Assembly (NCBI GenBank): GCA_944472155.2
Contig: OX235279.1
Location: 159,052,199 to 159,116,198 of the forward strand
Length of the DNA: 64,000 nt
Direction of reading: 5' to 3'
Source: Trichobilharzia szidati
Lineage: Eukaryota > Platyhelminthes > Trematoda > Strigeidida > Schistosomatidae
Shown: positions 18,402-64,000 of the stretch, in pieces
Layout: every line of letters begins with the position of its first letter
Numbering within the stretch: position 1 is the stretch's first letter
Position numbers and translations under genes: made by a program
The notes under the pieces: model-generated
Seen by the model: the letters and a program-made list of their open reading frames with translations, nothing else
What the model was told of the DNA's origin: nothing
The model's database searches: none

Positions 18402-18466
18402 GACCTGACTATTTGAAAACCCACCAGTTTAAGGTTAGTCTCACCATTTTTACGTCTTGTTTCTAG

Positions 18467-19371
18467 CTAGGACAAAACTTCTTTTCCTTTAAGCCTGTCT
18501 TCAAGAGATAAATCAGGTCTGACTGAAATTCCTGACCCGGCAAGCTTGTGTACATTAGCCAGTAGATGATTACATTCATCAGGAGAACCTAAGACTACTT
18601 TAAACAACCTACGCTGATTAGAACATTCATCATCTCTTTTGCCTTTTCTAATCAGCTTGTTAATCGATACTCCAGGGAAATTCGCTGGGAGCATCTTCCT
18701 TATAATACTACTCACTAATTTAAGGTCCTGATCCTGCCTTTTCACGGGATCAGATTCTTTGGACTCTTGTCGTATTTAGCAGTGGTTACGCCTTTTCTCA
18801 CCACTATTGATGCAGCCTGGCTACAGGTGACAGACGTTTGCCTACCATCAATATTACTATATTTCTTCCGATTGCTTATTTTTGTTACCCACTTATCATC
18901 TGCCTGCAGTTGCTTCTCAGGGCTGCTGCAGTTTTTGATGGAACAATCAAGATCAGTGTCTGCACCACCTTCATGGCGAACTTCGCTTACAGTGTTCTCT
19001 GGTGCCGAGATGCTGTTTACAGCTTCCGTTTTGTTACCTTTTCGCTTACTAAGACGCTTCGAACGCCTAGTAGGTTTTACTTCCGGGGTAACTGGGATAG
19101 TAACCGCCGGTGTGATAACATTCATGATGGCACTTACTGCGTCGTCTTTAGATGGGCAGTCCGTGTCACTCTAACCAGCCACGCTATCATCAGGAAGTTC
19201 CATGGCTTTAGACAGTAGTTCGTGAGCCTCCCTTATTAAAGTCATCTTTGGGGAGCAACACATTCTGCACATCCAGTGGGATGTTGCAGCACTACAACGT
19301 TTGTATGCATAGGATAGATAATACACTGAATTTTCTAGATGTCTGGCTAAACAGGCAAGAAGATGAGTCAC
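18467..19371 (-). pseudogene. CR1 #1 ORF1, broken
   Basis: Three open pieces: 19,371-19,171 (with a CRMCC cysteine cluster near its middle, probably the end of a zinc-finger region), 19,125-18,742 (basic, RRSKRLSKRKGNK), and 18,745-18,467. The first two are in one frame, separated by an in-frame TAG; the second and third are separated by a frameshift. The right-arm copy (63,066-63,970) has the same TAG and frameshift. ORF1 of CR1 elements binds the element RNA; no specific activity can be claimed here. Confidence 0.65.
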
Positions 19372-19395
19372 TCAACAAAGGCGTGTATATAACAA

Positions 19396-20865
19396 TAATA
19401 ATAATAATATATTCTCATTTTGTACATGAGGGACGCCAGTTTACAGGCATCATCAATATGATAAATTACATATACGATTAATAAACACATTTAATAATAG
19501 TAATTTAATAAAATACATTTTTCCCACCTGTGTAGGACACACCAATTGTACAGGCATGGATAAGCATTATTTAAATTACATAAATTTGGTTCATGCTTAA
19601 ATAATGTGGTTGCAATCATTTTGTCTACGGGAACAATATGATAACTAGTCATTCAATGGAGCACATCAAGAAATATAGAAATATTGTCTTCGCATTAACA
19701 AAAACACCCACGTATGTTCTGGATGGATTACAAATACTTGGGAAAAAAATAAAGCTTGAAGTAATTCCTCCACATAACTTTGGTGTGTACGGCATCGAGT
19801 CTTATTCTTGATTTATATCCAAATTTGGTAATAATTTAAAATAAGTAATACACTTGTAGACTTTTGTCAGCATTTTCATCGTAACATCACAAGTGAATTG
19901 TACTCAATGTAGACTAATAATAATAACAGTTTGTATTTTCTTATAAACGGGTGTTTTCAAGAAATGCAAGCTATTTTTGCAGACACAATCAGTTATGTTG
20001 TAGGTTACAATCGTGAAGTATTATAAATCAATACTCTTTTATTGGAATAAAGGTATATTTCACAGCTGTAATCCAGGTTGCGTCGTTGGTGAAGGTAATG
20101 CGTAATTCACGAGGGAATTGTAAGATATGGGACCAATAATGTTTGCAGATCATCTGTCATTGTAAATGGTCAAATATCCAAATTCTTCATTCTCATTCAA
20201 AAAGTCAAATTGAAGCTAAAATGGTGAGGAAAAAGAAGACAAACAACAGCAACGCAAAAGAAAGCAAGTGGAGTCCTCAAGGAGTGATTAATACGCATAT
20301 ATACATTTATATTCTGTTTAGTAACTATAGTTATTTTGGTGCACTAACTAACTAGTCCCGTGATGCTAACTTTTATATTGTGTGAACTAATATTATTGTC
20401 CTGTGTAAAAATGCCTATCATGTACTTCCAATAATATTGAAATTTATAATTGCAGTTTGTTGTAACTACACGTTTCATGAACTTAAAATATCTATGTAGG
20501 GTGAGAAAGAGGGTGTCATCTTTGAGCAGTCTGGTGACTGAGGAGATGAACACTGCGAGTGTTTGCATAGCGCACATCAGCTAGCTGGTAGTCTATTCCA
20601 AATGACTGAAAACTTATTTAAGAAGAAGCTGTACGGCATGTAAGTCTGACAATGCTCTATAGCAGCTAGGTTGTGATGATTTCTAAGATTGTAACTGATG
20701 ACAGCAGTAGGTTTAATTATTGGCTCGGAGGAGTGCACAAGCAGATTAGTTAGCCTGTACTAAAATATTAGGTTTAGCTTAAGACGTCTTTTCCAGAGTG
20801 GTTCTAATCTCAGTCTGCCGCAACGATCATAGTATTCAAGACCACTTTCTAAACCAAGACTTCTT
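19396..20865 (-). mobile_element. CR1-type 3-prime fragment with long 3-prime UTR
   Basis: On the minus strand about 20,865-20,578 encodes a CR1 ORF2 C-terminus (LRLEPLWKRRLKLNLIF, SYNLRNHHNLAAIEHC, FSVIWNRLPAS) with at least one stop. About 1.2 kb of non-coding sequence follows, ending in an ATT microsatellite (reverse of AATAATAAT at 19,398-19,410), as expected for a CR1 tail. Part of the non-coding region (19,54x-19,81x) resembles 46,21x-46,50x. The mirror copy is at about 61,572-63,042. Confidence 0.6.
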
Positions 20866-20914
20866 ATAAAAAGCACATTCAAAGGACAATACAAACACTT
20901 CCTTAGTTACGTGC

Positions 20915-21478
20915 TCATTAAATATAAAAGAAATATTGTTAAGTGTCTTACGTGCAAGGTAAGAAAGATATGTACGGACGATCACTTACAGAGGGAATTT
21001 GAATACATTCATACTTCCATGACAGAGGTAGGCTATCCAAATAGCTTCATTAGGAATATATGATAGCATCAGATAGAAAATCTGCTACGACGATGCCAAA
21101 AAAGAAACCTGTATTTAATTGGTTCTTGTCGGGTGAGATTCTGTCCCATAAACTTTCCAGGAGTACAAGAAAAACATTTTATACAGTAAACCTGCGTTTG
21201 CTGAAGAAGGACTATATCTCATTACGTAGGATGTTAGAGGTTTTCAGCAGGTTAAGCTGTGCCACTTAACCAGCTTGTTAATATTCTGGTCGACAGGCAC
21301 TCGGATTCATGTGAAAAATAGACTGAATCCATTCCATCTAACTCACACTACCCTCTTCATTCACAACTCTCCCTTTGTATCTCAACAGGCACGACCAGAA
21401 GACTGTATACAGAAAACCATATGCTCGCACTAGCAAGTACAAAAACTCAACCATATCCCACTTAGCTCGTGTTCTGAG
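20915..21478 (+). pseudogene. Penelope-like element fragment A
   Basis: The plus strand encodes LKYKRNIVKCLTCKVRKICT, then LQREFEYIHTSMTEVGYP, then after a stop KKPVFNWFLSGEILSHKL. The order parallels FVPLKYKRNLVKCL, NEELKIIKELLRKNGYP and KKPMFIKLQFLG in the PLE at 29.5-30.9 kb, so this is the RT-to-linker part of a PLE. Mirror copies lie at 60,959-61,522 (right arm) and, for the distal part only, at 41,142-41,440. Confidence 0.65.
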
Positions 21479-21599
21479 TGATTAAGAAAGCATTAGGCGT
21501 GAAACTTATAGCTTGTTAAATAATCAGTAGAACAATTGGATCTCGTCTCTCCAGCTCATACCACTTATAGGTATCACGTTTTCTTTCGTTTCTTTTCCT

Positions 21600-21640
21600 C
21601 TTCTCCCTCCCTCCCTCTCTCTCTCTCTCTCTCTCCTTTG
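21600..21640. repeat. (CT)n microsatellite
   Basis: A CCCT/CT simple-repeat run. Its length differs from the mirror GA run in the right arm near 60,820-60,835, which contributes to the 18-bp offset between arms. Confidence 0.85.
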
Positions 21641-22016
21641 TTACACAGGTTTATATATACAAAGTTAGTTGAAAAGTAATCTCAGAGATAATTGTCATTT
21701 AGTCACTGACTAAGTCAGTGTATGAGAAGTAACAATCCTTGAAAAAAATCCACGAATAATCTCAGTCAATCGAGAAAGTTGACAAATTACGGCAACAGCA
21801 AACAATAGACAGCTTGATTTGACTAATCAGATAGCTCAGCGTTACAAATGGTTCCTAGTCATAATCCTCTTTGGAAGTGTCGCCTAGATTTGGTTTTTGA
21901 CTTCTCTGTAGATAATGTGTTGATAGGGAGGAATAAAACATGCATGTGTGGAGGGATAAAAACTTTGGAAAAGTATCGGAGGGCTATTGACAGTTATATA
22001 TTCAGATGCAACCACT

Positions 22017-22985
22017 CTATATGAGGAAGTCTGCATAAGTTGGTAAGTCGTACATAACTGGTGATTTTTTAGACACTTTCTTCTCGAAATCAAAGCTCTC
22101 CCTTAGTAACATATTGCGTATATGCAACCAGTATCTGCTGCAGCTGGAGAAATAGAGAATACATTAGTTTGATATGTCTATAACCACTTCTATGAGAATC
22201 TGGGACCAGTTTCCGCAGCATGTTAGAGATATATACCCCATATTATTCATTTTTATTACATATATCATAGATAAACTTCTTTGTAAATTAAGTACCACTT
22301 TTCACTTAGAAGAATCTGATTGACTGCTTCAAGATCGTCTGAAGTTGGCGTCTACTCTTTACTGTTGCCCCGACTCCTACAATTACCGAACAACAACAAT
22401 AGAATTAAATTACTATACGCAGCGAAATCTCACTCTCTTCCCAAACCATCACTAGAAAGCTAAACAATCACGACTTATTGGGTCACAATGCGCGTTTATC
22501 AACGATCAACAGAAATCAGTAACTAAGACCATCACAGCATAGTATAGTACAGTACATGATATGAAAAGTTAACATATCAAACCTCGTTACTCACCTCTAA
22601 CCTTGGTCACTTATACCAATATTCCTCCTTTGGTCGCTATCAGCATCTCCACCCATCTCATCCTCATCGCTCGAATCGGATAAAACAATATCCTCATCTA
22701 CACTAGATTGAACACTGGGTGCAGGAATGAGCTCTGGGGGGAACAGCTTTTGTTCACGTGAGTCAGCAATACCTCACTTCATTCAATAGAATTAACATGT
22801 CCTTATAAAATGTGAACATACCCAACTACACTCACCACTCACACGGTCATCCCTGTTAACACTGGTCACATTGTAAATCGGAGTAGTTTCAGAAGACCTC
22901 GGATTCTCCTGTGCTCAGCCTGTCTGTTGTCGTGAAATTCAACTTTTTGAGTATTTCTCTTCCCTTTCGCCGCAGTTGGGTCCAT
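22017..22985 (-). other. Gene-like exon cluster, left copy (possible captured host gene)
   Basis: Mirror of the plus-strand cluster at 23,210-23,889. Pieces are exon A (22,985-22,836), exon B (22,733-22,595), exon C1 (22,376-22,306), and a fourth piece (22,143-22,017) lost from the plus copy but kept in the right-arm copy. The fourth piece follows a CTCTATTTCTCCAG acceptor and reads LQQILVAYTQYVTKGE, then after a one-base shift VSKKSPVMYDLPTYADFLI and a stop. The acceptor of exon B is intact here. I do not recognise the protein. Confidence 0.35.
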
Positions 22986-24034
22986 GGTCGTTTGGGATAT
23001 CCGTTTGAATTTCAGACGTTGTGAAATTTTTCAACCAGGTATATTGCGGCCAAGCTCATTCTTGTGTTCCACTACTAATTCCAAAAGCATTGATAGTGCC
23101 ATCAATGCTTTTGGAATTAGTAGTGGAACACAAGAATGAGCTTGGCCGCAATATACCTGGTTGAAAAATTTCACAACGTCTGAAATTCAAACGGATATCC
23201 CAAACGACCATGGACCCAACTGCGGCGAAAGGGAAGAGAAATACTCAAAAAGTTGAATTTCACGACAACAGACAGGCTGAGCACAGGAGAATCCGAGGTC
23301 TTCTGAAACTACTCCGATTTACAATGTGACCAGTGTTAACAGGGATGACCGTGTGAGTGGTGAGTGTAGTTGGGTATGTTCACATTTTATAAGGACATGT
23401 TAATTCTATTGAATGAAGTGAGGTATTGCTGACTCACGTGAACAAAAGCTGTTCCCCCCAGAGCTCATTCCTGCACCCGGTGTTCAATCTAGTGTAGATG
23501 AGGATATTGTTTTATCCGATTCGAGCGATGAGGATGAGATGGGTGGAGATGCTGATAGCGACCAAAGGAGGAATATTGGTATAAGTGACCAAGGTTAGAG
23601 GTGAGTAACGAGGTTTGATATGTTAACTTTTCATATCATGTACTGTACTATACTATGCTGTGATGGTCTTAGTTACTGATTTCTGTTGATCGTTGATAAA
23701 CGCGCATTGTGACCCAATAAGTCGTGATTGTTTAGCTTTCTAGTGATGGTTTGGGAAGAGAGTGAGATTTCGCTGCGTATAGTAATTTAATTCTATTGTT
23801 GTTGTTCGGTAATTGTAGGAGTCGGGGCAACAGTAAAGAGTAGACGCCAACTTCAGACGATCTTGAAGCAGTCAATCAGATTCTTCTAAGTGAAAAGTGG
23901 TACTTAATTTACAAAGAAGTTTATCTATGATATATGTAATAAAAATGAATAATATGGGGTATATATCTCTAACATGCTGCGGAAACTGGTCCCAGATTCT
24001 CATAGAAGTGGTTATAGACATATCAAACTAATGT
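22161..24034. repeat. Small palindrome: two 934-bp arms around a 6-bp loop
   Basis: Positions 22,161-23,094 are the near-perfect reverse complement of 23,101-24,034 with only AGTGCC between them; paired coordinates sum to 46,195 throughout, so there are no indels, only a few substitutions. The similarity resumes further out (24,041-24,250 with 21,480-21,710, sum 45,751) after a 444-bp deletion on the right side. The arms contain the gene-like exons described separately. Confidence 0.95.
23210..23889 (+). other. Gene-like exon cluster, middle copy (possible captured host gene)
   Basis: Exon A starts at an ATG (23,210), encodes MDPTAAKGKRNTQKVEFHDN and a basic RRIRGLLKLLR stretch, and ends at a G|GTGAGT donor (23,359); a one-base disruption is needed to stay open to the donor. 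Exon B (23,462-23,595) follows a TTCCCCCCAG acceptor and is acidic (VDEDIVLSDSSDEDEMGG). Exon C1 (23,819-23,889) follows a pyrimidine-rich TTGTAG acceptor and reads VGATVKSRRQLQTILKQSIR then FF and a stop, in phase if exon B ends at a weak donor at 23,595. Three copies exist in the window. It could be a small nuclear protein gene fragment; function unknown. Confidence 0.35.
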
Positions 24035-24250
24035 AATGTAGTCCGTGACTAAATGACAATTATCTCTGAGATTACTGTTCAACTAACTTTGTATATATAA
24101 ACCTGTGTAACAAAGGAGAGAGAGAGAGGGGGAGAAGAGGAAAAGAAACGAAAGAAAACGTGACACCTATATGTGGTATGAGTTGGGAAGACGAGATCCA
24201 ATTTTTCTACTGATTATTTAACAAGCTATAAGTTTCACGCCTAATGCTTT

Positions 24251-24617
24251 TGTAATAGTTAGACCTGGTTCAATTTAGACCTAAATTAATCACTCTTACA
24301 AAATCTTCTTCACCGCTTCATGATCTTAGTTGTACTCTGTCTAGTGTGCAAATACTAACGAACTGAATCAAGGTAAAAAGACTTGAAATGACTAGCGTGA
24401 CTGGAACAGAGTCATATTTACACAAAAGCAATATGAGATTTGATAAAAATAAGAGATTATGACTTATCTGCATTCGGGACAGTTGTAAGCTCGGAGGCTG
24501 TGCCGGATGACAGCACAACGAGAGAGCGAAACCAAAACCGTGCTCAAGATACGCGAGTCGAAGGAGGAAATGGTGAGTCCGTTCAAACAAAAGTGTGAAG
24601 GTTCAATATACACTACA
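24251..24617 (-). repeat. Gypsy LTR, 367 bp (probable downstream LTR)
   Basis: On the minus strand it runs TGTAGTGTACATTG...CTATTACA, with TG/CA ends. It is 367 bp like its mirror at 58,894-59,260 and similar to the LTRs at 40,762-41,141 and 35,366-35,748. The lower flank ends in CTTT. The upper flank of the 40,762-41,141 LTR also begins CTTT, suggesting that these two LTRs once bounded a single insertion into the small palindrome's arm. Confidence 0.75.
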
Positions 24618-26009
24618 GGTTATCCCCATCTTAGAAGGTTGGTGGGAAAACAGCAAGCTTCGATGTCTAAAAGTAGCAAGATTGTGTACAATAGAAAGAG
24701 GCTATAGTCAGTTTCAAGGTCATGATGAGTTCCTGCGTCGGCTGGTTATATGTTTCCGTGAATTCGTTTTCCATTGAATTTTAAAGGTTTTTTTGAATGT
24801 TTTACGCATTTTGCAGTGTGTGTGTCAGTTTTTGTCACTGGATGCTTCTATTAAGCTTATTTCTAGCCTGAATTTCCTAGTTATTATATTGGTAGTTAAG
24901 GATTATGGTAAATCTGCAATCATTGAGCCATTTCGCGTATTCTATGCTAATACAGTAACATTCCTCAGTAAGTAAACTGCTTAACTGTTCTGCCATTGTT
25001 GGATCAAACAGTGGCAGAACAGTTACTGATTATTTGCTTAAACTGGAACTGTGTGCTGTTTTATCTGCATGAGTGGCAATAATTCAGCACCTTTCTACGC
25101 ATTTACAGACGTAGCTTATCAGCCTTATTGCAGCCCTTCTAGTCCAGGTTCTGCTCCTCCCAAGCTTACCATAATGCTGAATTAAATCTCACTATTTCTG
25201 AAATAATTCCAACGTTCTATAGTAAGTAAATTCTGAATCTGTTCTTAAGTAGATTCTTTAATGGCACAGTCTAGAACACAGTTGTGGTTTTCAGCATGAC
25301 TGACACTAATTCAACACCATATTATTTTTCTAGATGTTTTCAGGAGTAGATCAGAACCTACTGGTTTTGCTTATCAGCTTTATTTAAACCCTTTCAGCTC
25401 ATTTTCAGCACGGACTAGCTTAACTGCAGAACAAAGAGACTTAATTTAGCACATAGTGGCAATTTTTGAGCTTGAATTTGGAAATTATATTTGGAAACTG
25501 TAGTACAATGTCACTGCAAATCCGTCAAGTTAGGTCTACTGGTAGCATCCTGTAAATAAGCAAAATAAAATATCAGTTGATGAAACATTGTGCTCATCAC
25601 ATTCTCAGCATTTACATTTAGAAAATTTTGCTTACATAGCTGCCACTGTTATATCCCCTGCTATCTTTTCCATTTGCCTAGAAATAAAAACAATGTTGTG
25701 ATTACTACATGTCGACTTAACGTTGACTTATAAAACGAAGCGGGCGTTTAACAATATCACCTGAATTCCTTTCTTCAGGTTACGCCTTTGGACACGATCT
25801 TTCAAATTATGAATGTACGATTTCGTGGCCTAATCCATTATGTCACCAACCTCTCTCGATGTCATCAGTACTTCATTAATGAACCTTACATCTCGTGACT
25901 GAATTTCGAACATCTGAATATCCCTAAATTCCTTGATTTAAATGGTGTATTAAAATCATCACTAAAATCACAGTAGGGTCGAGAGGGTATCCTCTCTTCA
26001 CATTCCATT

Positions 26010-26414
26010 TCAACTATATTCCCCCGGTTTACCTGAGGCTAAGATTATATTGTCCGGAGAATAAGAAGTAAATATGACGTTCAGATAAGTTAACTTTCCT
26101 TTGCTAAACTTAAAGCCTTTAGTACTAGCTTCTTTAGGTACATGCTTGACACCTGTACTTTTCATTAAGTGCACGTGCTCAACATAACGCTGAGCTGCCT
26201 GCTTAGCCACAACATATCCACAGTGCACGAACTGTCTGATCATGCGCATATAGAATTCAAAGGGAAATGCACTGAATCCCTCTAATAGCCCATGCAGCTC
26301 GACGTCATCCACTGTACGTTTCAGAAAATGAATATTGTAAACATTATGTTCATCTCCGAAACAGTTCTCATATTGCAGTAAGAAATTACTCCAATCTGTC
26401 CGAACAGCATCCAA
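26010..26414 (-). pseudogene. Transposase C-terminal remnant (DUF4218/Tnp2-like)
   Basis: A 134-codon frame. Residues about 15-75 read CFGDEHNVYNIHFLKRTVDD, then GLLEGFSAFPFEFYMRMIRQ, then QAAQRY. The YN.H.L...V...G.L...SAFPFE...R pattern is that of the transposase-associated domain of CACTA-type (EnSpm/Tnp2) and related transposases found in animals. The catalytic DDE/D part is not visible in the flanking frames. Family recall is from pattern only. Confidence 0.55.
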
Positions 26415-26696
26415 AAACAGTCGGCTGTATTTGGTACTCGAAAGTAAGTATACTGACAGGGAAAATTTCCTATAATTATAGTACTGGGGGGAGGCAGAAT
26501 GTTCCTGAGTAAGCCAGACCCAAATATAGTAGTTTTTAGAAGGACCAGGGTTATTTCAGTACATACTGGGTTCACTTCAAATAGATAAAATATTCATTTA
26601 CGGTAAAAACGCATTATTGACGCGTTGGTTAGATTTTGCTGAGAACTGTTGCAAGGTTGGTCTTTTAAGTGTACTAGGCTTACTATAATATAAAAA

Positions 26697-26930
26697 AATT
26701 ATATTTGTAAAGTCTCAACGAGATTGAAATGAGTAATTCCAACGTTTCGTTCGGCAATCTGGACAAATTTTCAAAAACAAGTGATGTTCCTTTTTATATA
26801 TAAACCTGTTATGTTAAATTCGATTAATTTCCCTGAAGAAGTTCGGACCAGATTGCCGAACGAAACGTTGGAATTAATCATTTCAATATCGCTGAGATAT
26901 TACAAATATAATTTTTTACAAATGTCTACT
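26697..26930. repeat. Fold-back unit with hammerhead-like motif
   Basis: About 75 bp at 26,697-26,771 returns as an imperfect reverse complement at 26,850-26,930; the shared core is CCAACGTTTCGTTCGGCAAT. Both strands can present a CCGAACGAAACG sequence. It resembles pseudo-LTR ends of PLEs, which are known to carry hammerhead motifs. Confidence 0.6.
26833..26868 (+). ncRNA. Hammerhead ribozyme-like motif (PLE type)
   Basis: CTGAAGA (fits CTGANGA), one extra A, then GTTCGG...CCGAAC forming a six-pair stem II with an eight to nine base loop, then GAAAC. The extra A between core and stem is the only clear departure from consensus. Confidence 0.5.
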
Positions 26931-27524
26931 TCTCACTCGGCGCCCTAATATTTTAGAACTATTCTGTCAAATCTTGACGACAATTCATTTGAATTACTAT
27001 AATATACCTCCAAAAGTGCATTTATACCTCACAAACTTATATTCCATAGGGCCAGATGGGTCTTTTTTTACCTGTATCAAACCGATAGGATGTGTTGGAT
27101 TCCTTTCAAAGAAATAATGAACAATTTAGTTGTTACCTTCATAAGTGTATCAAAAGCTTGCTTAAGTTGCACCCACGTATAAAATACACAACTAAGCATT
27201 ATTCTTTGGAATACAGCCATTAAATCAGACAATATAGATGACACTTTTCGTGAAGCAGAGGCTGCAGGAGTATTTTGTAATGGTTTTAACAATGACTAAC
27301 GAACACAACATTATAATTTCAAGTAAATGAATAATAGTATATATTTCAGTGCCCATAAACCACTGTTGTGACCTAGTAAATTTAATTGATTTATGCTGAC
27401 GTAATATGCACAAATCCCACAGGTCACTGAACTGACAACCTAAAAAGTGGATCAGTTAATACATATATATGTGCTAATTAAATACTCATTAATTGTCTAG
27501 ACACTGTGGTTTAATCACATTCTT

Positions 27525-27757
27525 CTAGTAAGCAAAAATGCACACGTCCTATTTTAAACTTAAAATATATGTATGAAAATTACCGTTGTCTTATATTCCC
27601 TTACTTAACATTCTCAGACATCTCAATGAGTCATGTTCGTCTAGTAGGCAAAAATACACATATCCTATTTTAGACTTAAAATATATGTATCAATATATGT
27701 ACTGTTGATTTATATTGACTTAATATACAATCTCAGATATCTTAATGTACCTTTATT
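27525..27757. repeat. 116-bp imperfect tandem duplication
   Basis: CTAGTAAGCAAAAATGCACA at 27,525 recurs with a few changes at 27,641, and both copies continue through CCTATTTTA.ACTTAAAATATATGTAT. It lies near the right end of the 3.27-kb insertion. Confidence 0.7.
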
Positions 27758-27977
27758 TACCACTAATGCATCCAAATAGCCTGTGAATCATCACACTACA
27801 CTCACACCCATAAAATTAACACGTGATTATATTATGGTAAAGTACGTTCAATTAAACTGCCTGTAAATTTCCGTGTCAAAATAACAAATTACCGCTTAAT
27901 TTATATTTTAGACCAATAAAAAGCCAGCTAGCCAACAGCCAATCAAAATCTGCCAATATCGCTTTTCGTGTACAATA

Positions 27978-28760
27978 ACAGTGAATGGACAGGAAGGTGT
28001 GAAGATAGTAATAAAATATTTTTTAGAAATATATTGTGGAAGGAAAGAATGAAGGGGAAGAAATTAAGGCAATTTATGGGCACTATATACATGATTAATG
28101 GCGTAAGACGGAATATAAGAAGAAATAACGCTGGTGCCCTGGTGCGATTTCAAGCTTCTGAGTTGTCTGGGATATTTTACATCGTTTATTTTTATTTATC
28201 TTTTTTATATATGTTTATTTATTTTGTTAACGACATACTATTACGGGCTGAATTATGTGGAGGTCTGATGGTTTACCTCCGTTTCCCAGGTTGTTATAGC
28301 GGGAAGGTGACTCATTATGTCTAAGTTACATCTTAGACTAATACTCTATCCTTCCTCATCAACCAAAACTAGTGGTAATACCAGAGGCAATCAATATACC
28401 AGCGTATTAGGAGGAATAAAGTAAAAGCAACAGAAAAGAATAGAAGAAGAGGTTAAGATTTCAAAATCAGAATAAGGTGTTACCAAAAACTTAAGCGGAA
28501 TAAATGCGAGGGAACTAGTGTAACATGGAAGCGATACACCAAATTGAAATAAAACAAGGGAAATTGCTAACGCTGTGAAAACTGATGCAATGCACAGAGA
28601 AGTGTGTGTACAACCAACAGTTAAGAGTAGGTACAATCGCCATTTTTTTAAATGTTGCAAGCTGTATAATTAAAGTCATACATACGTACTACGCGGTACG
28701 TCCAACGTTTGCGTTATATTTTTGCGTGATTCGTTACATAAGATTTATCTTGTTGTAATC
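27978..28760. other. Non-coding block shared by both arms, possibly Gypsy 3-prime internal region
   Basis: There is no convincing coding. A purine-rich AAGATGGGGATAACC stretch lies just inside the 24,251-24,617 LTR on the minus strand (24,618-24,632, across the later insertion). If that LTR is the downstream LTR of the Gypsy, this block would be part of the Gypsy untranslated region. This is inference. Confidence 0.35.
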
Positions 28761-29225
28761 CTTGCACAAGTTCTCTACTACCTCCATACCTATAACTATT
28801 AACTCTCATATCAAATAGTCATGGTTAACCAAAGTAAAAAGCAACGAACTCAATCCCCTGTAAATCTGATGACTAATTTTAAGTCGTTGATTGCTACATC
28901 AAGCAACACACTCCCTACAAACGGTTATAGTGAGCCACATAACTCACTTGTATGTCGTAAGCGTCGAGCTGAAACTGAGGATAAAACTGTACTGACAGCT
29001 AGTATTAGCACTACTGCCAAAAATTCAGTAGCCTCTGCTCATACAGAAACCCTCCCTACACCTTATGTGCCTATCGAAAAGCTCTAGCCTTCAAGCTCTG
29101 TTTCAGTACTATCTTCAGAAATAGAACTTCTAAAGCTGTCTATAGGAGAACTTAAGGCCGAGTTAAGGGAAATAAAAAACAATAAGTCAGTAAATCCTGG
29201 AATTTCTGAAACCAATACCAAAATA

Positions 29226-51500: not shown

Positions 51501-51734
51501 CAATATCATAATAAAATGCTCTATGGTTATCAGCTGAATATGTGCAGTCGTTATTGGATTCATTAATTGCAACATTTTGATCACTAGAGACGTTTTCTTT
51601 AGTTTGATACTTAGGGATGGGTTGTGAGATGTCACTCGTGAGTGGTTGGTCGTTTAGATATTGCGTGCTATGGGAGATACTAGTATGATAATCTAAGGTA
51701 TTACTATTGGTATTAGGTGTGTATAAAGTGTTTG

Positions 51735-53075: not shown

Positions 53076-53203
53076 ACAGGTTTATAAATGTGTTTATAAA
53101 TGTATATCATTGTATAGTAAACATTACCTATAATCTAGTTGTTTTTTTATGTATTTTGCGATGTCTTAGAGTTTATTTAGTGTCATAATATTTTGTAATG
53201 AGT

Positions 53204-56200
53204 CTAGGCGTTATAGTGTTCTAATAGCTCATGCGTTATAGAAATAAGTGGCGCGGTGTGATTGGCATAGTCATTGGGATGAAACAGTTTATATAGCCAG
53301 CGTTTGAAGGTTACAGTAGAGTGACAGGTCCTTATTTCTAGGGGTAAACTGTTCCAGATCTTAGAGTACATGACTGAAAAAGTTAGCACGGAGTGCTGTT
53401 TTACAGCTTTTTCTAGATACCGCGCACGTCTGGTTACGAAGGTTGTAAGAGCTTTCCGGTGAAAACTGTACCTCCTTACTGTCTGAGAATGATATTTTAT
53501 GCAATATTTTAAAGAAGAATGTTAGGTTAATGCTGAGTCGTCTCATTCAGAGTGGGTCGATACCTAGAGTTATACACCTTGATGTGTAGTCCTTTTCGCA
53601 GTCAAATCCTAGTAGTCTAGACATGGAGTATCGTTGGACACTTTCTATTTTGAGCTTGTCACTTACGCGAGTGCTGCTGAGAATAAATGGACAATATTCA
53701 AGTAGCGGTCTGACACAAGTCTTATATAATAATAGTTTCGCTTCGTAGTTGTGGAAATTCCTGAGTATGCATCTTAAGATCATCCTCGATTTACGCGTCT
53801 GTGTCGCCACTCGCTCAGAAAATGTCAGGTCACTAGAGTACCTGAGTCCTAGGTCAACAACACTTTGGAGTTTAGGCAAGTCAAGAGATTCAAGTACCAG
53901 TTTGATATTTATTGAGGGTGCACCGAAACAGATCCAACCACATTTTTAAGGTTGAATTTTAGGTCCCATGTGGAGGACCATGCAGTTACTCTACCTAGTC
54001 CTTCCTTTCTGAAAGTATCCTAAGTCATCACAGTGGAATGTGTAAGCTACTTTAAGATCATCTGCAAAGACGAATGGTTTACCAAGTGAGAAACAGCTGC
54101 ATATGTCGTTGACATATAGAGTGAAAAGAAGGGGGCCTAAGACGCTACCTTGAACTACTCCAGAAGTGACTGGACTAGGCTTAGAATTTACAGACCCCAG
54201 TATAACCACTTGGGACCTATTGTTAAGGAATGATTCAATCCATCCTAATAATGGGTTACGTATTCCTAAGGAGTTCAGCTTATTGATTAGAAGCAAATGG
54301 TCAACTCGGTCAAAGGCTTTGGAGATGTCGAAGTAGATGACTAGTACTAGTTGTTGTTTGTCTCGGCTGCTAGTTATATAGTTAAAGAAGTCAAGGTGAC
54401 ATGTCATGCATGATCTGGATTTTAGGAATCCATGTTGGTTGGGACTTAGAATATTGCAGCTGAGCATATGTTTGAGAATATCATCTTTAACTATTCTCTC
54501 AATGATTCTAGATACTATGGGTGTAATATTGATTGGCCTATAGTTGTTGACTTCAGTTTTAGATTCGGATTTGTGTTTGGGTACTATAAATGTGGTTTTC
54601 CATTTATCTGGATAGGTTTGGATTTCTAGGGTCATTGTAAAGATCTTAAGTAATAATAGAGAAATGTCAGAACCACCGTGTTTATAAAAATACGATGCTA
54701 TAGCGTCAAAGCCAGCGCTACTAGAGCTTTTAAGAGTATTAATGGCTTGGTTAATATTAGAATAAGTGAAATGAACTGTAGTGATTTGTTTCAGCGTTGA
54801 AGAAGAAGAAGGGAGTTCTATTGTAGATTGTAAGCCGAGAAGTGGACTTGTGGGCTTCAGGTAGTTAGCTGCAAACGTCTCGTTAAACAGTTCACACATG
54901 TCTGCATGGTTGCTGTATAGTTTACCCTTGTTTATAAGGAGAGAAATTTGATGACTTTGGCGATTCATTCGTTTCTTTAGTATTTCTGTGAGAGCACCTA
55001 CTTTGGTGGTGCTGGCTAGTGCGGTGCATTCTTCATTTCTCATACGCAAGTTATGAGCTTGCGAGATGGAGCTAAGAGTACTAAGTATTGACCCTAGTGT
55101 ACTAAAGTCGTGTCGTCTGAAGTAACTTGTTGACAGTCTCTTCAGTTTCCTACGATCCTTTAGCTTTATGAATGACTTTCTATGTGGGGAAAACTTTAGT
55201 GTTTGAAGTGGGATGACAGCATCTAAGCATGTGTTGGAGTTATAGTAAAAGATGTCTAGAGCTTTCGAGAGGTTATCAGTATAGAAGTACTCTCTCCATT
55301 CTGAGGATCTTAGCATTGATTTCACTAGAGTCCAGTCTGCGTTACTGTAGTTCCTGTAAGTTATTTGTTGTGAAGTAGGGGTATGGGTTGCATTGCTACT
55401 TGATGGAAGTGGCAGTGCACACAGCACTGTTTTGTGGTCACTCCCTGAAAACTCAGAACCTACTAGGATAGAAAGGGGACTTATATTGTGGCAGGAGATT
55501 AAGTCTAGTACGTTATTACCTCTTGTAGGGGTTGTGACAGTCTGTTTCCAGCCAAGTATATCCAGTGTGCCCAAGAACTTATCAAATTTAGTTGGGCCTG
55601 TGGGTATATCCCAGTTGATTTCTGGCAAGTTAAAGTCTCCACATAGGATCTTATGATCGTAGTGGAGGGTGGATAATTGTTCCAGAGTATTAATAAGTTG
55701 GGTCTCGTAATTACTAAAGGTGCCAGGTGCTCTGTAGGTGCATCCAATTAATACTATTGCGTTATTTAAGTGTAAGTTAACCCATAAAGTCTCAGGCATG
55801 TTAAGTGTACTACTTTCTAGCCGTGATACAGTAAGTGCATTCAGAAAGTATATGAGAAAACCCCCTCCCTTACCACCTTCCCTGTCACACCGAAAGTGTG
55901 TGTAGTTATCTAAGCTTATCTCTTCATCCAGTATGTTCGAATCACACCAGGATTCAGTGATGACAATTATAGGGGGTTTGTATATTACTGTGAGTGCTCT
56001 GAGCATCGGTAGTTTATTTAGAACAGATCTAGCATTTATGAGGATCAGGTAAAGATGAGATTTGAAATAGCATTTGAAGTATTTAAGTTCGTTAATCAGC
56101 CCCGAATGTGGTTCAGCACCCAGTAGTACTGTTTGACATGACGACCCTATGTTAAGAGGAGTTTCAACATCATGCTCACCTATGTCTATCGAGTTGGTGT

Positions 56201-56489
56201 GTGCTGTTTTCGGTGAAGAATTAAGCGTTGGAGTACTGGATGTGCTATAGGCTAAGGCATTTTTATTTTTAGTTAAGCTGGAAACGTGGGTAGGGATCTT
56301 TATTTGACCTAAACTTGTGCATGTATCAAGTGTGCTTAGTGGATGCGGGTGAACTAGACTGTTCCTATATTCATGCAAAGGGGGAGCCAGCACTAGCGGT
56401 TTAGGAGTGTTAACATCCCTACCAGCTGTTTTTTCAACGCTGACAGGGACGCAGGGGATAAAAAATGATTGGGACCTTGTGAAGACCAT
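53204..56489 (-). pseudogene. CR1 #2 ORF2, right copy
   Basis: The 832-codon main part (56,489-53,991) has the same endonuclease and RT motifs as the left copy, including GDFNLPEINWD, GSDHKTVLC, YFDISKAFDRVDH and FVFADDLKVAY, and the same frameshifts after the FADD box. Pieces 53,879-53,547 and 53,546-53,204 complete the C-terminus. A private TGG-to-TGA change (after GIDPL, about 53,546) adds one more stop than in the left copy. Confidence 0.88.
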
Positions 56490-57974
56490 GGTTTATTATT
56501 CCACCTATTGTTAGGTACTAGTTGTGTCCTTGTATGGGTTTCGTGTGTACTGCTTTGTGGGTTAGTTCCCAGCAGACTTGTACCATATATCCGATCAAAA
56601 TTTATTTGTGTGCCATACTGTGAATACCCTGAGTTGTTGGTGGTCGAGTTCTGACTATTACCACTTGTACTATTGAGGGTGGCATTGTTGTGGCGTTGGT
56701 TATCAGTGTGGGCCATGGTGCTATTTCGCACGTTGTGGGTGCCAATACTATTGACCGTGGGGAATGTGGGCTTATTTATACTGCCATTGTTGTTGTTGGC
56801 ATGATTTGGGGTCATATTCTCCTTTTTTACCAATGGACTTATGGCTAGGAGAGGACAGGGTCGACTTTCGGGGGATTTTGACTTTTTTCCGGGATTATTT
56901 GGTGACATGTCTATATCTACGGTGATAGGTGGTATAGTTTTATTGGCTATTTGATTACAATTTAGTGGCCTTTCGGTTGGTGTCGCTCTCTGAGAGGATA
57001 ATTCTGTGTTGTTTGAGAGGGGTGGTGCGGTGGATTCTACGGTATCTCTCAAAGGGTTGGGTATAATTGCTGCTTGCAATGTCCTATTGTTTATTCCACA
57101 ATTAGACTCAGTGAGATAATTATATACGCGCCTTTCTATGACTGTCTTGTCCACCGCAACCTTTATTAGTTTGTAGTTTCTGGCTTGCGATAGGGTGTGT
57201 TGGGAGTGGATGAATTTTCTGGCCTCTGCCGGTGTTTCGAACTGAAAACGAATAGGACAACACTTTTCATGTTGACTCTTCTTCAGCCTGTAGCACTTAG
57301 TCTTGGAGTTGGGCATTTTCGCCTCACTAAGTAAGATGCGCTGTACCCTTTTTAGTGCCTCATTGTCCGGAACGTTGTAGACAATAGCATTTAGTTTAGC
57401 GTCGAGTCGTTTTGTTACTTCTGTAGTAACAAAGTTAATGAGGTTATCCACCTTAGATAGCCGATTCCGTGTCAAGTTTGTTAAGGTCTACAGTTTTCAT
57501 GAGAATAGTTAAAGGTGTCAGTTCACAGACCTGCGATCTGATATCGCTGATCTGATCTGATAATTTGGATATTTTGGTATTGGTTTCAGAAATTCCAGGA
57601 TTTACTGACTTATTGTTTTTTATTTCCCTTAACTCGGCCTTAAGTTCTCCTATAGACAACTTTAGAAGTTCTATTTCTGAAGATAGTACTGAAACAGAGC
57701 TTGAAGGCTGGAGCTTTTCGATAAGCACATAAGGTGTAGGGAGGGTTTCTGTATGAGCAGAGGGTACTGAATTTTTGGGAGTAGTGCTAATACTAGCTGT
57801 CAGTACAGTTTTATCCTCAGTTTCAGCTCGACGCTTACGACATACAAGTGAGTTATGTGGCTCACTATAACCGTTTGTAGGGAGTGTGTTGCTTGATGTA
57901 GCAATCAACGACTTAAAATTAGTCATCAGATTTACAGGGGATTGAGTTCGTTGCTTTTTACTTTGGTTAACCAT
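56393..57974 (-). pseudogene. CR1 #2 ORF1, right copy (uninterrupted by PLE)
   Basis: Two overlapping frames: 57,974-57,453 (173 codons, starting MVNQSKKQRTQSPVNL, with the coiled-coil-like IELLKLSIGELKAELREIK) and 57,475-56,393 (RRM-like block, Asn/Thr-rich tail). The codon that is TAG in the left copy is CAG here. The frame break at about 57,460 is shared with the left copy, so it either predates the duplication or is used by the element as a programmed shift. Confidence 0.78.
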
Positions 57975-58035
57975 GACTATTTGATATGAGAGTTAATAGT
58001 TATAGGTATGGAGGTAGTAGAGAACTTGTGCAAGG

Positions 58036-58893
58036 ATTACAACAAGATAAATTTTATGTAACGAATCACGCAAAAATATAACGCAAACGTTGGACGTACC
58101 GCGTAGTACGTATGTATGACTTTAATTATACAGCTTGCAACATTTAAAAAATTGGCGATTGTACCTACTCTTAACTGTTGGTTGTACACACACTTCTCTG
58201 TACATTGCATCAGTTTTCACAGCGTTAGCAATTTCCCTTGTTTTATTTCAATTTGGTGTATCGCTTCCATGTTACACTAGTTCCCTCGCATTTATTCCGC
58301 TTAAGTTTTTGGTAACACCTTATTCTGATTTTGAAATCTTAACCTCTTCTTCTATTCTTTTCTGTTGCTTTTACTTTATTCCTCCTAATACGCTGGTATA
58401 TTGATTGCCTCTGGTATTACTACTAGTTTTGGTTGATGAGGAAGGATGGAGTATTAGTCTAAGATGTAACTTAGACATAATGAGTCACCTTCCCGCTATA
58501 ACAACCTGGGAAACGGAGGTAAACCATCAGACCTCCACATAATTCAGCCCGTAATAGTATGTCGTTAACAAAATAAATAAACATATATAAAAAAGATAAA
58601 TAAAAATAAACGATGTAAAATATCCCAGACAACTCAGAAGCTTGAAATCGCACCAGGGCACCAGCGTTATTTCTTCTTATATTCCGTCTTACGCCATTAA
58701 TCATGTATATAGTGCCCATAAATTGCCTTAATTTCTTCCCCTTCATTCTTTCCTTTCACAATATATTTCTAAAAAATATTTTATTACTATCTTCACACCT
58801 TCCTGTCCATTCACTGTTATTGTACACAATCTTGCTACTTTTAGACATCGAAGCTTGCTGTTTTCCCACCAACCTTCTAAGATGGGGATAACC
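58036..58893. other. Non-coding block shared by both arms, right copy
   Basis: Mirror of 24,618-24,693 plus 27,978-28,760, with an uninterrupted insertion site for the 3.27-kb element at about 58,818-58,827 (single TATTGTACAC). Possible Gypsy 3-prime internal region; no coding. Confidence 0.4.
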
Positions 58894-59260
58894 TGTAGTG
58901 TACATTGGACCTTCACACTTTTGTTTGAACGGACTCATCATTTCCTCCTTCGACTCGCGTATCTTGAGCACGGTTTTGGTTTCGCTCTCTCGTTGTGCTG
59001 TCATCCGGCACAGCCTCCGAGCTTACAACTGTCCCGAATGCAGATAAGTCATAATCTCTTATTTTTATCAAATCTCATATTGCTTTTGTGTAAATATGAC
59101 TCTGTTCCAGTCACGCTAGTCATTTCAAGTCTTTTTACCTTGATTCAGTTCGTTAGTATTTGCACACTAGACAGAGTACAACTAAGATCATGAAGCGGTG
59201 AAGAAGATTTTGTAAGAGTGATTAATTTAGGTCTAAATTGAACCAGGTCTAACTATTACA
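58894..59260 (+). repeat. Gypsy LTR, 367 bp, right copy
   Basis: TGTAGTGTACATTGG...CTATTACA, mirror of 24,251-24,617. The flank AAAGCATTAG at 59,261 corresponds to the CTTT flank on the left. Confidence 0.78.
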
Positions 59261-59366
59261 AAAGCATTAGGCGTGAAACTTATAGCTTGTTAAATAATCA
59301 GTAGAAAAATTGGATCTCGTCTTCCCAACTCATACTAATTGCAAAAGCATTGATAGTGCCATCAAT
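59261..59366. repeat. Collapsed stub of the small palindrome
   Basis: About 75 bp of the outer arm (59,261-59,335) is joined directly to the central hairpin (GCAAAAGCATTGAT, loop AGTGCC 59,355-59,360, ATCAATGC). Relative to the left arm, about 1,056 bp between the outer arm and the hairpin centre are gone. Confidence 0.85.
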
Positions 59367-59469
59367 GCTTTTGGAATTAGTAGTGGAACACAAGAATGAG
59401 CTTGGCCGCAATATACCTGGTTGAAAAATTTCACAACGTCTGAAATTCAAACGGATATCCCAAACGACC

Positions 59470-60438
59470 ATGGACCCAACTGCGGCGAAAGGGAAGAGAA
59501 ATACTCAAAAAGTTGAATTTCACGACAACAGACAGGCTGAGCACAGGAGAATCCGAGGTCTTCTGAAACTACTCCGATTTACAATGTGACCAGTGTTAAC
59601 AGGGATGACCGTGTGAGTGGTGAGTGTAGTTGGGTATGTTCACATTTTATAAGGACATGTTAATTCTATTGAATGAAGTGAGGTATTGCTGACTCACGTG
59701 AACAAAAGCTGTTCCCCCCCGAGCTCATTCCTGCACCCGGTGTTCAATCTAGTGTAGATGAGGATATTGTTTTATCCGATTCGAGCGATGAGGATGAGAT
59801 GGGTGGAGATGCTGATAGCGACCAAAGGAGGAATATTGGTATAAGTGACCAAGGTTAGAGGTGAGTAACGAGGTTTGATATGTTAACTTTTCATATCATG
59901 TACTGTACTATACTATGCTGTGATGGTCTTAGTTACTGATTTCTGTTGATCGTTGATAAACGCGCATTGTGACCCAATAAGTCGTGATTGTTTAGCTTTC
60001 TAGTGATGGTTTGGGAAGAGAGTGAGATTTCGCTGCGTATAGTAATTTAATTCTATTGTTGTTGTTCGGTAATTGTAGGAGTCGGGGCAACAGTAAAGAG
60101 TAGACGCCAACTTCATACGATCTTGAAGCAGTCAATCAGATTCTTCTAAGTGAAAAGTGGTACTTAATTTACAAAGAAGTTTATCTATGATATATGTAAT
60201 AAAAATGAATAATATGGGGTATATATCTCTAACATGCTGCGGAAACTGGTCCCAGATTCTCATAGAAGTGGTTATAGACATATCAAACTAATGTATTCTC
60301 TATTTCTCCAGCTGCAGCAGATACTGGTTGCATATACGCAATATGTTACTAAGGGAGAGCTTTGATTTCGAGAAGAAAGTGTCTAAAAAATCACCAGTTA
60401 TGTACGACTTACCAACTTATGCAGACTTCCTCATATAG
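59470..60438 (+). other. Gene-like exon cluster, right copy
   Basis: Exon A 59,470-59,619, exon B 59,722-59,855, exon C1 60,079-60,149 and the fourth piece 60,312-60,438, as in the left copies. Here the exon B acceptor is changed from CAG to CCG (59,720), and one Gln codon in exon C1 is changed to His. This is the only plus-strand copy that keeps the fourth piece. No recognised family. Confidence 0.35.
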
Positions 60439-60958
60439 AGTGGTTGCATCTGAATATATAACTGTCAATAGCCCTGCGATACTTTTCCAAAGTTTTTATC
60501 CCTCCACACATGCATGTTTTATTCCTCCCTATCAACACATTATCTACAGAGAAGTCAAAAACCAAATCTAGGCGACACTTCCAAAGAGGATTATGACTAG
60601 GAACCATTTGTAACGCTGAGCTATCTGATTAGTCAAATCAAGCTGTCTATTGTTTACTCTTGCCGTAATTTGTCAACTTTCTCGATTGACTGAGATTATT
60701 CGTGGATTTTTTTCAAGGATTGTTACTTCTCATACACTGACTTAGTCCGTGACTAAATGACAATTATCTCTGAGATTACTGTTCAACTAACTTTGTATAT
60801 ATAAACCTGTGTAACAAAGGAGAGAGAGGGGAAGAAGAGGAAAAGAAACGAAAGAAAACGTGATACCTATAAGTGGTATGAGCTGGAGAGACGAGATCCA
60901 ATTGTTCTACTGATTATTTAACAAGCTATAAGTTTCACGCCTAATGCTTTCTTAATCA

Positions 60959-61522
60959 CTCAGAACACGAGCTAAGTGGGATATGGTTGAGTTTTTGTAC
61001 TTGCTAGTGCGAGCATATAGTTTTCTATATACAGTCTTCTGGTCGTGCCTGTTGAGATACAAAGGGAGAGTTGTGAATGAAGAGGGTAGTGTGAGTTAGA
61101 TGGAATGGATTCAGTCTATTTTTCACATGAATCCGAGTGCCTGTCGACCAGAATATTAACAAGCTGGTTAAGTGGCACAGCTTAACCTGCCGAAAACCTT
61201 TAACATCCTACGTAGTGAGATATAGTCCTTCTTCAGCAAACGCAGGTTTACTGTATAAAATGTTTTTCTTGTACTCCTGGAAAGTTTATGGGACAGAATC
61301 TCACCTGACAAGAACCAATTAAATACAGGTTTCTTTTGTGGCATCGTCGTAGCAGATTTTCTATCTGATGCTATCATATATTCCTAATGAAGCTATTTGG
61401 ATAGCCTACCTCTGTCATGGAAGTATGAATGTATTCAAATTCCCTCTGTAAGTGATCGTCCGTACATATCTTTCTTACCTTGCACGTAAGACACTTAACA
61501 ATATTTCTTTTATTTTTAATGA
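60959..61522 (-). pseudogene. Penelope-like element fragment A, right copy
   Basis: Mirror of 20,915-21,478, with the same KKPVFNWFLSGEILSHKL block (61,320 region) and the same stop upstream. Decayed. Confidence 0.65.
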
Positions 61523-61571
61523 GCACGTAACTAAGGAAGTGTTTGTATTGTCCTTTGAATGTGCTTTTTAT

Positions 61572-63042
61572 AAGAAGTCTTGGTTTAGAAAGTGGTCTTG
61601 AATACTATGATCGTTGCGGCAGACTGAGATTAGAACCACTCTGGAAAAGACGTCTTAAGCTAAACCTAATATTTTAGTACAGGCTAACTAATCTGCTTGT
61701 GCACTCCTCCGAGCCAATAATTAAACCTACTGCTGTCATCAGTTACAATCTTAGAAATCATCACAACCTAGCTGCTATAGAGCATTGTCAGACTTACATG
61801 CCGTACAGCTTCTTCTTAAATAAGTTTTCAGTCATTTGGAATAGACTACCAGCTAGCTGATGTGCGCTATGCAAACACTCGCAGTGTTCATCTCCTCAGT
61901 CACCAGACTGCTCAAAGATGACACCCTCTTTCTCACCCTACATAGATATTTTAAGTTCATGAAACGTGTAGTTACAACAAACTGCAATTATAAATTTCAA
62001 TATTATTGGAAGTACATGATAGGCATTTTTACACAGGACAATAATATTAGTTCACACAATATAAAAGTTAGCATCACGGGACTAGTTAGTTAGTGCACCA
62101 AAATAACTATAGTTACTAAACAGAATATAAATGTATATATGCGTATTAATCACTCCTTGAGGACTCCACTTGCTTTCTTTTGCGTTGCTGTTGTTTGTCT
62201 TCTTTTTCCTCACCATTTTAGCTTCAATTTGACTTTTTGAATGAGAATGAAGAATTTGGATATTTGACCATTTACAATGACAGATGATCTGCAAACATTA
62301 TTGGTCCCATATCTTACAATTCCCTCGTGAATTACGCATTACCTTCACCAACGACGCAACCTGGATTACAGCTGTGAAATATACCTTTATTCCAATAAAA
62401 GAGTATTGATTTATAATACTTCACGATTGTAACCTACAACATAACTGATTGTGTCTGCAAAAATAGCTTGCATTTCTTGAAAACACCCGTTTATAAGAAA
62501 ATACAAACTGTTATTATTATTAGTCTACATTGAGTACAATTCACTTGTGATGTTACGATGAAAATGCTGACAAAAGTCTACAAGTGTATTACTTATTTTA
62601 AATTATTACCAAATTTGGATATAAATCAAGAATAAGACTCGATGCCGTACACACCAAAGTTATGTGGAGGAATTACTTCAAGCTTTATTTTTTTCCCAAG
62701 TATTTGTAATCCATCCAGAACATACGTGGGTGTTTTTGTTAATGCGAAGACAATATTTCTATATTTCTTGATGTGCTCCATTGAATGACTAGTTATCATA
62801 TTGTTCCCGTAGACAAAATGACTGCAACCACATTATTTAACCATGAACCAAATTTATGTAACTTAAATAATGCTTATCCATGCCTGTACAATTGGTGTGT
62901 CCTACACAGGTGGGAAAAATGTATTTTATTAAATTACTATTATTAAATGTGTTTACTAATCGTATATGTAATTTATCATATTGATGATGCCTGTAAACTG
63001 GCGTCCCTCATGTACAAAATGAGAATATTTTATTATTATTAT
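61572..63042 (+). mobile_element. CR1-type 3-prime fragment, right copy
   Basis: Mirror of 19,396-20,865: C-terminal LRLEPLWKRRLKLNLIF and FSVIWNRLPAS near 61,62x-61,855, then a UTR of about 1.2 kb ending in an ATT run at about 63,028-63,041. Confidence 0.6.
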
Positions 63043-64000
63043 TGTTATATACACGCCTTTGTTGAGTGACTCATCTTCTTGCCTGTTTAGCCAGACATCT
63101 AGAAAATTCAGTGTATTATCTATCCTATGCATACAAACGTTGTAGTGCTGCAACATCCCACTGGATGTGCAGAATGTGTTGCTCCCCAAAGATGACTTTA
63201 ATAAGGGAGGCTGACGAACTACTGTCTAAAGCCATGGAACTTCCTGATGATAGCGTGGCTGGTTAGAGTGACACGGACTGCCCATCTAAAGACGACGCAG
63301 TAAGTGCCATCATGAATGTTATCACACCGGCGGTTACTATCCCAGTTACCCCGGAAGTAAAACCTACTAGGCGTTCGAAGCGTCTTAGTAAGCGAAAAGG
63401 TAACAAAACGGAAGCTGTAAACAGCATCTCGGCACCAGAGAACACTGTAAGCGAAGTTCGCCATGAAGGTGGTGCAGACACTGATCTTGATTGTTCCATC
63501 AAAAACTGCAGCAGCCCTGAGAAGCAACTGCAGGCAGATGATAAGTGGGTAACAAAAATAAGCAATCGGAAGAAATATAGTAATATTGATGGTAGGCAAA
63601 CGTCTGTCACCTGTAGCCAGGCTGCATCAATAGTGGTGAGAAAAGGCGTAACCACTGCTAAATACGACAAGAGTCCAAAGAATCTGATCCCGTGAAAAGG
63701 CAGGATCAGGACCTTAAATTAGTGAGTAGTATTATAAGGAAGATGCTCCCAGCGAATTTCCCTGGAGTATCGATTAACAAGCTGATTAGAAAAGGCAAAA
63801 GAGATGATGAATGTTGTAATCAGCGTAGGTTGCTTAAAGTAGTCTTAGGTTCTCCTGATGAATGTAATCATCTACTGGCTAATGTACACAAGCTTGCCGG
63901 GTCAGGAATTTCAGTCAGACCTGATTTATCTCTTGAAGACAGGCTTAAAGGAAAAGAAGTTTTGTCCTAGCTAGAAACAAGACGTAAAAATGGTGAGACT
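63043..64000 (+). pseudogene. CR1 #1 ORF1, right copy, cut by the window edge
   Basis: Pieces 63,066-63,266, 63,312-63,695 and 63,692-63,970 mirror 19,371-18,467, with the same in-frame TAG after SVAG and the same frameshift before KRQDQDLKLV. Differences are few (His/Asp, Ser/Cys, Phe/Leu). ORF2 would follow outside the window. Confidence 0.7.

Follow-up and report, generated by a model that had tools for sequence, protein, structure and literature searches.

The bird schistosome Trichobilharzia szidati carries, within a window of 64,000 nucleotides on contig OX235279.1 (hereafter C8, positions 159,052,199-159,116,198; the assembly totals 1.114 Gb and has 907 contigs), a giant nested palindrome according to a first-pass annotation of the sequence. 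The question raised by this locus is whether such a structure exists in the chromosome and by what route it arose. The analysis covered a stretch of 254 kb around the window (C8:158,972,199-159,226,198); coordinates marked rel start at C8:158,972,199, with window position 1 at rel 80,001. With a probability of roughly 0.65, a real ampliconic array on a probable sex chromosome has the palindrome as its core, and its transposon-rich unit would have been duplicated segmentally in inverted orientation, through fold-back or a switch of template. This reading is founded on the alternating copies, their identity, shared lesions, insertions in single arms with target-site repeats, and fold-back centres.

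Extent and identity of the palindrome arms

Self-BLAST of the window recovered reverse-complement blocks at the constant coordinate sums from which the palindrome had been deduced (Table 1); it is real and larger than was claimed. Five of the six blocks originally listed were recovered, whereas no separate block had the sum of 82,455. The five cover 14.7 kb of each 20.8-21.1-kb arm inside the window, and what remains is for the most part confined to a single arm. Chance would not come near to producing matches of kilobase length at 99%. The arms had been put at a minimum of 20.8 kb, which holds, and they run past the window edge to C8:158,982,229 on the left and C8:159,184,034 on the right. 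The left arm extends from rel 119,492 outward to 10,031 and the right arm from rel 123,226 to 211,836, giving spans of 109 and 89 kb that are joined in a single collinear chain of 13 blocks. Identity between the arms is 99.54% (372 mismatches in 81,499 aligned columns, with 36 small indels), a figure based on 11 blocks of 98.8-99.8% and omitting the two outermost (97.2 and 97.4%). The outer block that extends into the left edge of the window is 99.55% identical over 35,497 aligned bases.

The arms also share the lesions of dead elements, as the annotation had proposed. For three left-arm transposon blocks, each stop codon in all three frames was compared with the aligned right-arm codon, which was also a stop in 275 of 276, 157 of 157 and 298 of 299 cases. 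Since the arms are rich in retroelement open reading frames (ORFs), independent insertion of the same transposons in opposite orientation might be considered as a source of the pairing. However, this explanation is refuted by the shared stops and by one collinear chain passing through different elements and their boundaries, and is given virtually no weight. Taken as a whole, the earlier interpretation, which favoured a segmental inverted duplication, is partly supported.

Further differences between the arms consist of long insertions and deletions (Table 1). The insertion at 24694..27967, which lies in one arm only, faces an empty site in the other and carries a 10-bp direct repeat at its ends, is younger than the duplication. 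The 15.3-kb difference is probably a deletion in the right arm, where its junction carries a 4-base overlap.

Mirror point and fold-back centres

The 3.7-kb spacer described between the arms (39493-43225; 3,733 bp) is real as an apparent gap, but it is not primary, given that the mirror point lies at 43,196.5 and not in the middle of the spacer. At this point, termed junction B, a 12-nt loop (CCCCTGACTTAC) is followed by only 17 bp of the right-hand stem, then by six bases and then by the right arm. A sister junction, B0, lies 118.6 kb from B and comprises a stem, a 12-nt loop (GTAAGTCAGGGG) and a stem that is perfect for 30 bp, with the loop being the exact reverse complement of that of B. 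The B0 palindrome (rel 3801-5344; C8:158,975,999-158,977,542) is 1.54 kb long and almost spacer-free, with halves that are 98.7% identical. Sequence of the apparent spacer flanks B0 on both sides in opposite orientations, with a gap on the right-hand side. Because the loop and stub of B match B0, whose two sides both carry spacer sequence, junction B probably once possessed both halves, and approximately 3.67 kb would have been lost from one side of an almost spacer-free fold-back. The comparison of B0 (both halves) with B (one half lost) indicates how a 'spacer' can arise after a palindrome has formed.

Each arm holds a smaller palindrome. Within the left arm lies a second fold-back, of 1.88 kb, that was absent from the first-pass annotation and emerged from self-BLAST. 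In the right arm, this palindrome repeats the one-half-lost pattern of junction B at a smaller scale. A read-level fold-back chimera was rejected as the origin of the small palindromes, as the two halves of each are 0.3-2.2% apart and several copies have centres in common.

Array of alternating copies and its history

A 2,764-bp anchor (window 18437-21200) was used as a genome query. On C8 it matched at 159.001 (-), 159.071 (+), 159.113 (-) and 159.168 (+) Mb, designated copies 1 to 4, and a query with the 1.88-kb palindrome located copy 0 (+) at 158.956 Mb, left of the 254-kb stretch. There are at least five copies of the unit (0 to 4), in the orientation + - + - +. The four genome searches (anchor, B spacer sequence, 1.88-kb palindrome and the sequence of the middle of junction A, defined below) scored 40 of 5,523, 40 of 12,881, 40 of 2,922 and 26 of 13,401 first-look candidates, respectively, so that copy numbers are lower bounds. 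Within rel 1-226,270, 95.4% of the sequence is duplicated inside the stretch at an identity of at least 95%. The figures fall to 15% (inverted) and 18% (direct) in the 27.7 kb that follow, which places the right border of the array near C8:159.198 Mb. The array comprises more than 200 kb of near-identical alternating blocks.

Junction A occurs between copies 1 and 2 and between copies 3 and 4, junction B lies between copies 2 and 3 (in the window), and B0 lies between copies 0 and 1. Breakage-fusion-bridge cycles, or fusion of sister-chromatid ends, could be invoked to make such palindromes at one cycle per junction, and very short loops would suit the fusion of folded or sister ends. Separate cycles, however, should differ in their break points and so each give a different junction, whereas junction types A and B recur. 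Furthermore, the array is internal, approximately 20 Mb from the chromosome end. This route is improbable and was rejected as the main one.

Under the preferred reading of fold-back or template switching, a DNA end would first fold back, or a fork switch template, at an inverted repeat whose halves lie a few nucleotides apart, producing an almost spacer-free palindrome. The inverted pair would then be multiplied through further inverted duplication or unequal recombination. Almost spacer-free palindrome centres are normally unstable, and some may have lost one side to leave a loop with a stub of 13-17 bp and, at B, the 3.7-kb 'spacer'. Exchange from arm to arm would keep the copies similar and also shuffle them, and transposons would later insert into single arms. 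By analogy, the nearest described route is origin-dependent inverted-repeat amplification (ODIRA) in yeast, whose inverted triplications likewise have palindromic junctions at short inverted repeats and later rearrangements that lengthen the spacer (PMC10766186). The fluke array resembles these in its alternating copies and in having two junction types, A and B, each found twice (PMC10766186).

The history of the copies was examined in tiles of 1 kb, limited to those in which copies 1 to 4 can all be aligned. In these, 76 site patterns join copies 1+4 and 2+3, compared with five joining 1+2 and 3+4 and five joining 1+3 and 2+4. The anchor tree concurs with the majority grouping and places an unplaced contig (C716) beside copy 2, at an anchor distance of 0.39% to copy 2 and 0.59% to copy 3. 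Closest pairs of 1-4 and 2-3 would also result if two haplotypes (copies 1-2 and 4-3) had been joined head to head during assembly, in which case the outer palindrome would exist in no single chromosome. The arm divergence of approximately 0.5% is within the size possible for alleles. Unpurged duplicates may exist in the assembly, given that autosomes C2 and C4 also have near-identical gene pairs at short distances (search with the U2AF model described below) and that C858, an unplaced contig, has a score equal to that of C8:159,217,186. However, the 254-kb stretch is free of any N, which rules out a scaffold mis-join across a gap, and fold-back centres with the same loop occur at both B and B0. 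Provided that a single individual was sampled, the C716 anchor near copies 2 and 3 is also one more than a diploid locus can supply, and a second cluster, at a distance of 3.9 Mb, likewise has inverted copies. The chance of an assembly artefact is small.

Differences between the arms are clumped, with a variance-to-mean ratio of 3.57 in 500-bp bins compared with no more than 1.40 in 2,000 random placements. The groupings also conflict: copy 4 differs from the other three, which resemble one another, in the innermost piece, and a swap of 6.1 kb for 387 bp between arms was seen twice, in opposite sense. Clumping and conflicting groupings together may be read as a mirror-type duplication overlaid by exchange between the inverted arms, and uneven mutation could account for part of this pattern.

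Several observations weigh against the reading of a fold-back array with arm exchange. The 6.1-kb/387-bp difference groups copies 1+3 and 2+4, contrary to the majority of sites. The longest identical run between the arms is 2,487 bases, compared with a random 99% point of 2,316 and a random maximum of 4,113; as it barely exceeds the 99% point, gene conversion is not proven. No clean fold-back was seen at the centre of junction A, and the 1.88-kb palindrome, whose 6-nt loop is common to copies 1, 2 and 3, has in copy 4 an identity of 97.8% and a less clean centre. Yeast ODIRA junctions are described with repeats of 5-6 bp and interruptions of 40-80 nt, unlike the fluke loops of 6 and 12 nt, where the original repeat length is no longer readable (PMC10766186). 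The yeast route further calls for a replication origin within the amplified unit (PMC10766186). In addition, the left border of the array lies beyond the 254 kb that were read, making its leftward extent a lower bound, and the structure of the array is that of the assembled sequence.

Table 1. Features of the window, in window coordinates unless marked rel; block pairs are reverse-complement matches from self-BLAST.
Feature	Position	Paired position	Sum	Identity	Remarks
Outer block, left arm	1..486, continuing left (rel 45,003-80,486)	rel 182,432-146,975, right of window			
15.3 kb, unpaired	487..15785				Shared by copies 1, 2 (left arm) and 4; copy 3 (right arm) lacks it
Inner left arm (copy 2)	15786..39492			98.8-99.8% (aligned blocks)	Orientation +
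Block pair	18437-23122	64000-59333	82,437	99.0%	
1.88-kb palindrome (fold-back), left arm	22160..24035				Axis 23,097.5; almost spacer-free; 6-nt loop AGTGCC; 378-bp perfect stem
Block pair	24176-24693	59335-58818	83,511	99.4%	
Insertion, left arm only	24694..27967				10-bp direct repeat at ends; opposite arm is empty site
Block pair	27968-29225	58827-57570	86,795	99.1%	
Insertion, left arm only	29226..30870				Part of reverse-transcriptase ORF; 10-bp direct repeat at ends; empty site opposite
Block pair	30871-35364	57579-53090	88,450	98.9%	
387 bp	35365..35751				Copies 2 and 4; copies 1 and 3 have 6.1 kb at that place
Block pair	35752-39492	46967-43226	82,719	99.8%	
Unpaired inner left arm (apparent spacer)	39493..43190				Right-arm partner gone
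12-nt loop CCCCTGACTTAC	43191..43202				Mirror point 43,196.5, junction B
17-bp stub of deleted inner right arm	43203..43219				
Right arm (copy 3)	43226..64000				Orientation -; goes on outside window to rel 211,836
6.1 kb, LINE-type (long interspersed nuclear element) reverse-transcriptase ORF	46968..53089				Right arm; also copy 1; absent from copies 2 and 4
Lone half of 1.88-kb palindrome, right arm	59333..60295				6-nt loop at 59,357.5; 13-bp perfect stub of lost half

The second cluster has anchors at 162.935, 162.945 and 162.956 Mb (+) and at 163.070 and 163.079 Mb (-), with a partial anchor at 163.027 Mb (-). Two of the three + anchors mirror both - anchors about 163.009 Mb (sums of 326,017,007 and 326,018,177, calculated by hand), and the third has no partner among the matches listed. 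Matches to the middle of junction A lie at 162.891 and 162.906 Mb (99 and 100% identity), and matches to the B spacer sequence at 162.972 (+) and 163.048 (-) Mb (94 and 97%). Anchors of the first and second clusters differ by 1.6-3.1%. Among the matches listed, halves related to the 1.88-kb palindrome occur in both C8 clusters, and near C8:171.7-172.0 Mb and on C338 at 91%; more distant halves (81-84%) occur at C8:10.3 Mb, C4:78.5 Mb and on C305.

Three side observations came from these searches. Tandem anchors in the second cluster (C8:162.89-163.08 Mb) are spaced approximately 10 kb apart. The B-spacer match on C858, with its score equal to that of C8:159,217,186, may be the same sequence twice. 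An element of approximately 2.4-2.7 kb, met in the search with the middle of junction A, has copies of 96-98% identity on seven or more chromosomes (C1, C2, C3, C4, C6, C7 and C8 among them), in tandem in places (C6:69.44-69.46 Mb) and also as inverted pairs.

Chromosomal setting, gene content and known systems

In Schistosoma, u2af2 is a candidate sex-determining gene. A model of the U2AF large subunit gave 58 matches in T. szidati (84 of 109 candidates scored), and the four above the cut-off were all on C8: those at 118.81 and 118.83 Mb are intact, whereas those at 139.31 and 139.39 Mb contain stops. On C8 there are also split u2af2 copies, at 111.79, 112.15 and 112.22 Mb, and some u2af2 copies form inverted pairs. 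In Schistosoma, one Z copy and one W copy are described (PMC8662593). Contigs C1 to C8 measure 68.6-216.9 Mb and the next four sampled (C9-C12) approximately 10 kb; C8 is the second longest and the last of the eight large contigs. Schistosoma mansoni is described as having eight chromosome pairs and ZW females (PMC8490949), and the position of C8 after seven other contigs would fit a Z listed behind seven autosomes. Because of the u2af2 copies and the eight large contigs, C8 is probably a sex chromosome, either Z or a ZW composite, and the region itself may be Z-only, W-only or pseudoautosomal.

Gene content was examined by a Pfam scan of 28 ORFs, the 254-kb stretch containing 626 non-redundant ORFs of at least 50 aa. 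Domains above the cut-off were found in 12 of the 28, and nearly all of these are transposon ORFs: 11 carry reverse transcriptase, endonuclease, integrase and similar domains, and one carries DUF6451. No host gene was found among the scanned ORFs, although short exons would escape such a scan. Five database proteins are related at E ≤0.001 to one ORF of the unit, 285 aa long; the best of them is 90% identical and named 'PHD-type domain-containing protein' (T. regenti). Since a LINE endonuclease ORF follows directly downstream, the 285-aa ORF is probably LINE ORF1. The intact and broken u2af2 copies on C8 and the clumped arm differences would be compatible with a W-limited palindrome under selection, in which gene conversion between arms preserves female genes. 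However, with transposon domains, one DUF6451 and no host gene among the scanned ORFs, such a function is more doubtful still than an artefact or end fusion. The fold-back array is instead taken to have arisen mainly as a side effect of unstable repeats, perhaps on a chromosome where recombination is restricted, and not to be a protected gene cassette.

Large palindromes on sex chromosomes have been described in mammals, birds and willow, where they often bear genes and where selection for gene conversion is given as the explanation (PMC7023750). In willow (Salix purpurea), W.P1/W.P2 covers approximately 200 kb and consists of a 20-kb sequence in four alternating arms that are on average >99% identical, with a 2.6-kb spacer (PMC7023750). 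The fluke array is similar in layout and in its insertions and deletions confined to one arm, and C8 is probably a sex chromosome, as the willow chromosome is (PMC7023750). In contrast, the willow arms are described as carrying genes with evidence of gene conversion in a female-specific region, whereas the scanned fluke ORFs contain no host gene (PMC7023750).

Ape palindromes are defined as inverted repeats of >8 kb with at least 98% identity, a spacer of ≤500 kb and <80% repetitive content (PMC11168930). The 81,499 columns at 99.54% in the fluke exceed this size and identity, and the spacer is 3,733 bp in appearance and a 12-nt loop at the mirror point (PMC11168930). As with the palindromes of the ape Y and X, long inverted repeats of ≥98% identity with a spacer occur in a much-repeated region. 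However, the ape palindromes are described as holding ampliconic genes, whereas the fluke array has transposon domains only (scanned ORFs) and fold-back loops (PMC11168930). The W-elements of S. mansoni are likewise repetitive sex-chromosome DNA, in a related fluke, but by their description they are blocks of satellite repeats and not large inverted segmental copies (PMC8490949).

Transposon domains without a host gene in the scanned ORFs suggest that such arrays can grow with no gene to protect. More tentatively, and on balance with some doubt, this may be a gene-poor ampliconic Z/W region made by repeated fold-back duplication, with palindromes inside palindromes and some almost spacer-free centres (loops of 6 and 12 nt) persisting in the germ line. 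If so, it would provide a natural record of fold-back, doubling, centre deletion and arm exchange, and would be the first such structure on a flatworm sex chromosome as far as literature searches go. Among the papers listed from open-licence PubMed Central, none had a title or abstract opening on large palindromes in a flatworm, and those listed on Trichobilharzia genomes or sex chromosomes included no T. szidati genome paper.

Other scans of the window gave no Rfam match, short tandem-repeat arrays only (seven rows) and a composition profile with nothing informative. Elsewhere in the assembly, COX1 of the mitochondrial contig, translated with code 9, matches that of T. szidati at 100% over 440 aa and that of the next named species at 85%. 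This contig (C907; 25,169 bases) contains COX1 twice, 14,244 bases apart, and therefore represents more than one turn of the circle.

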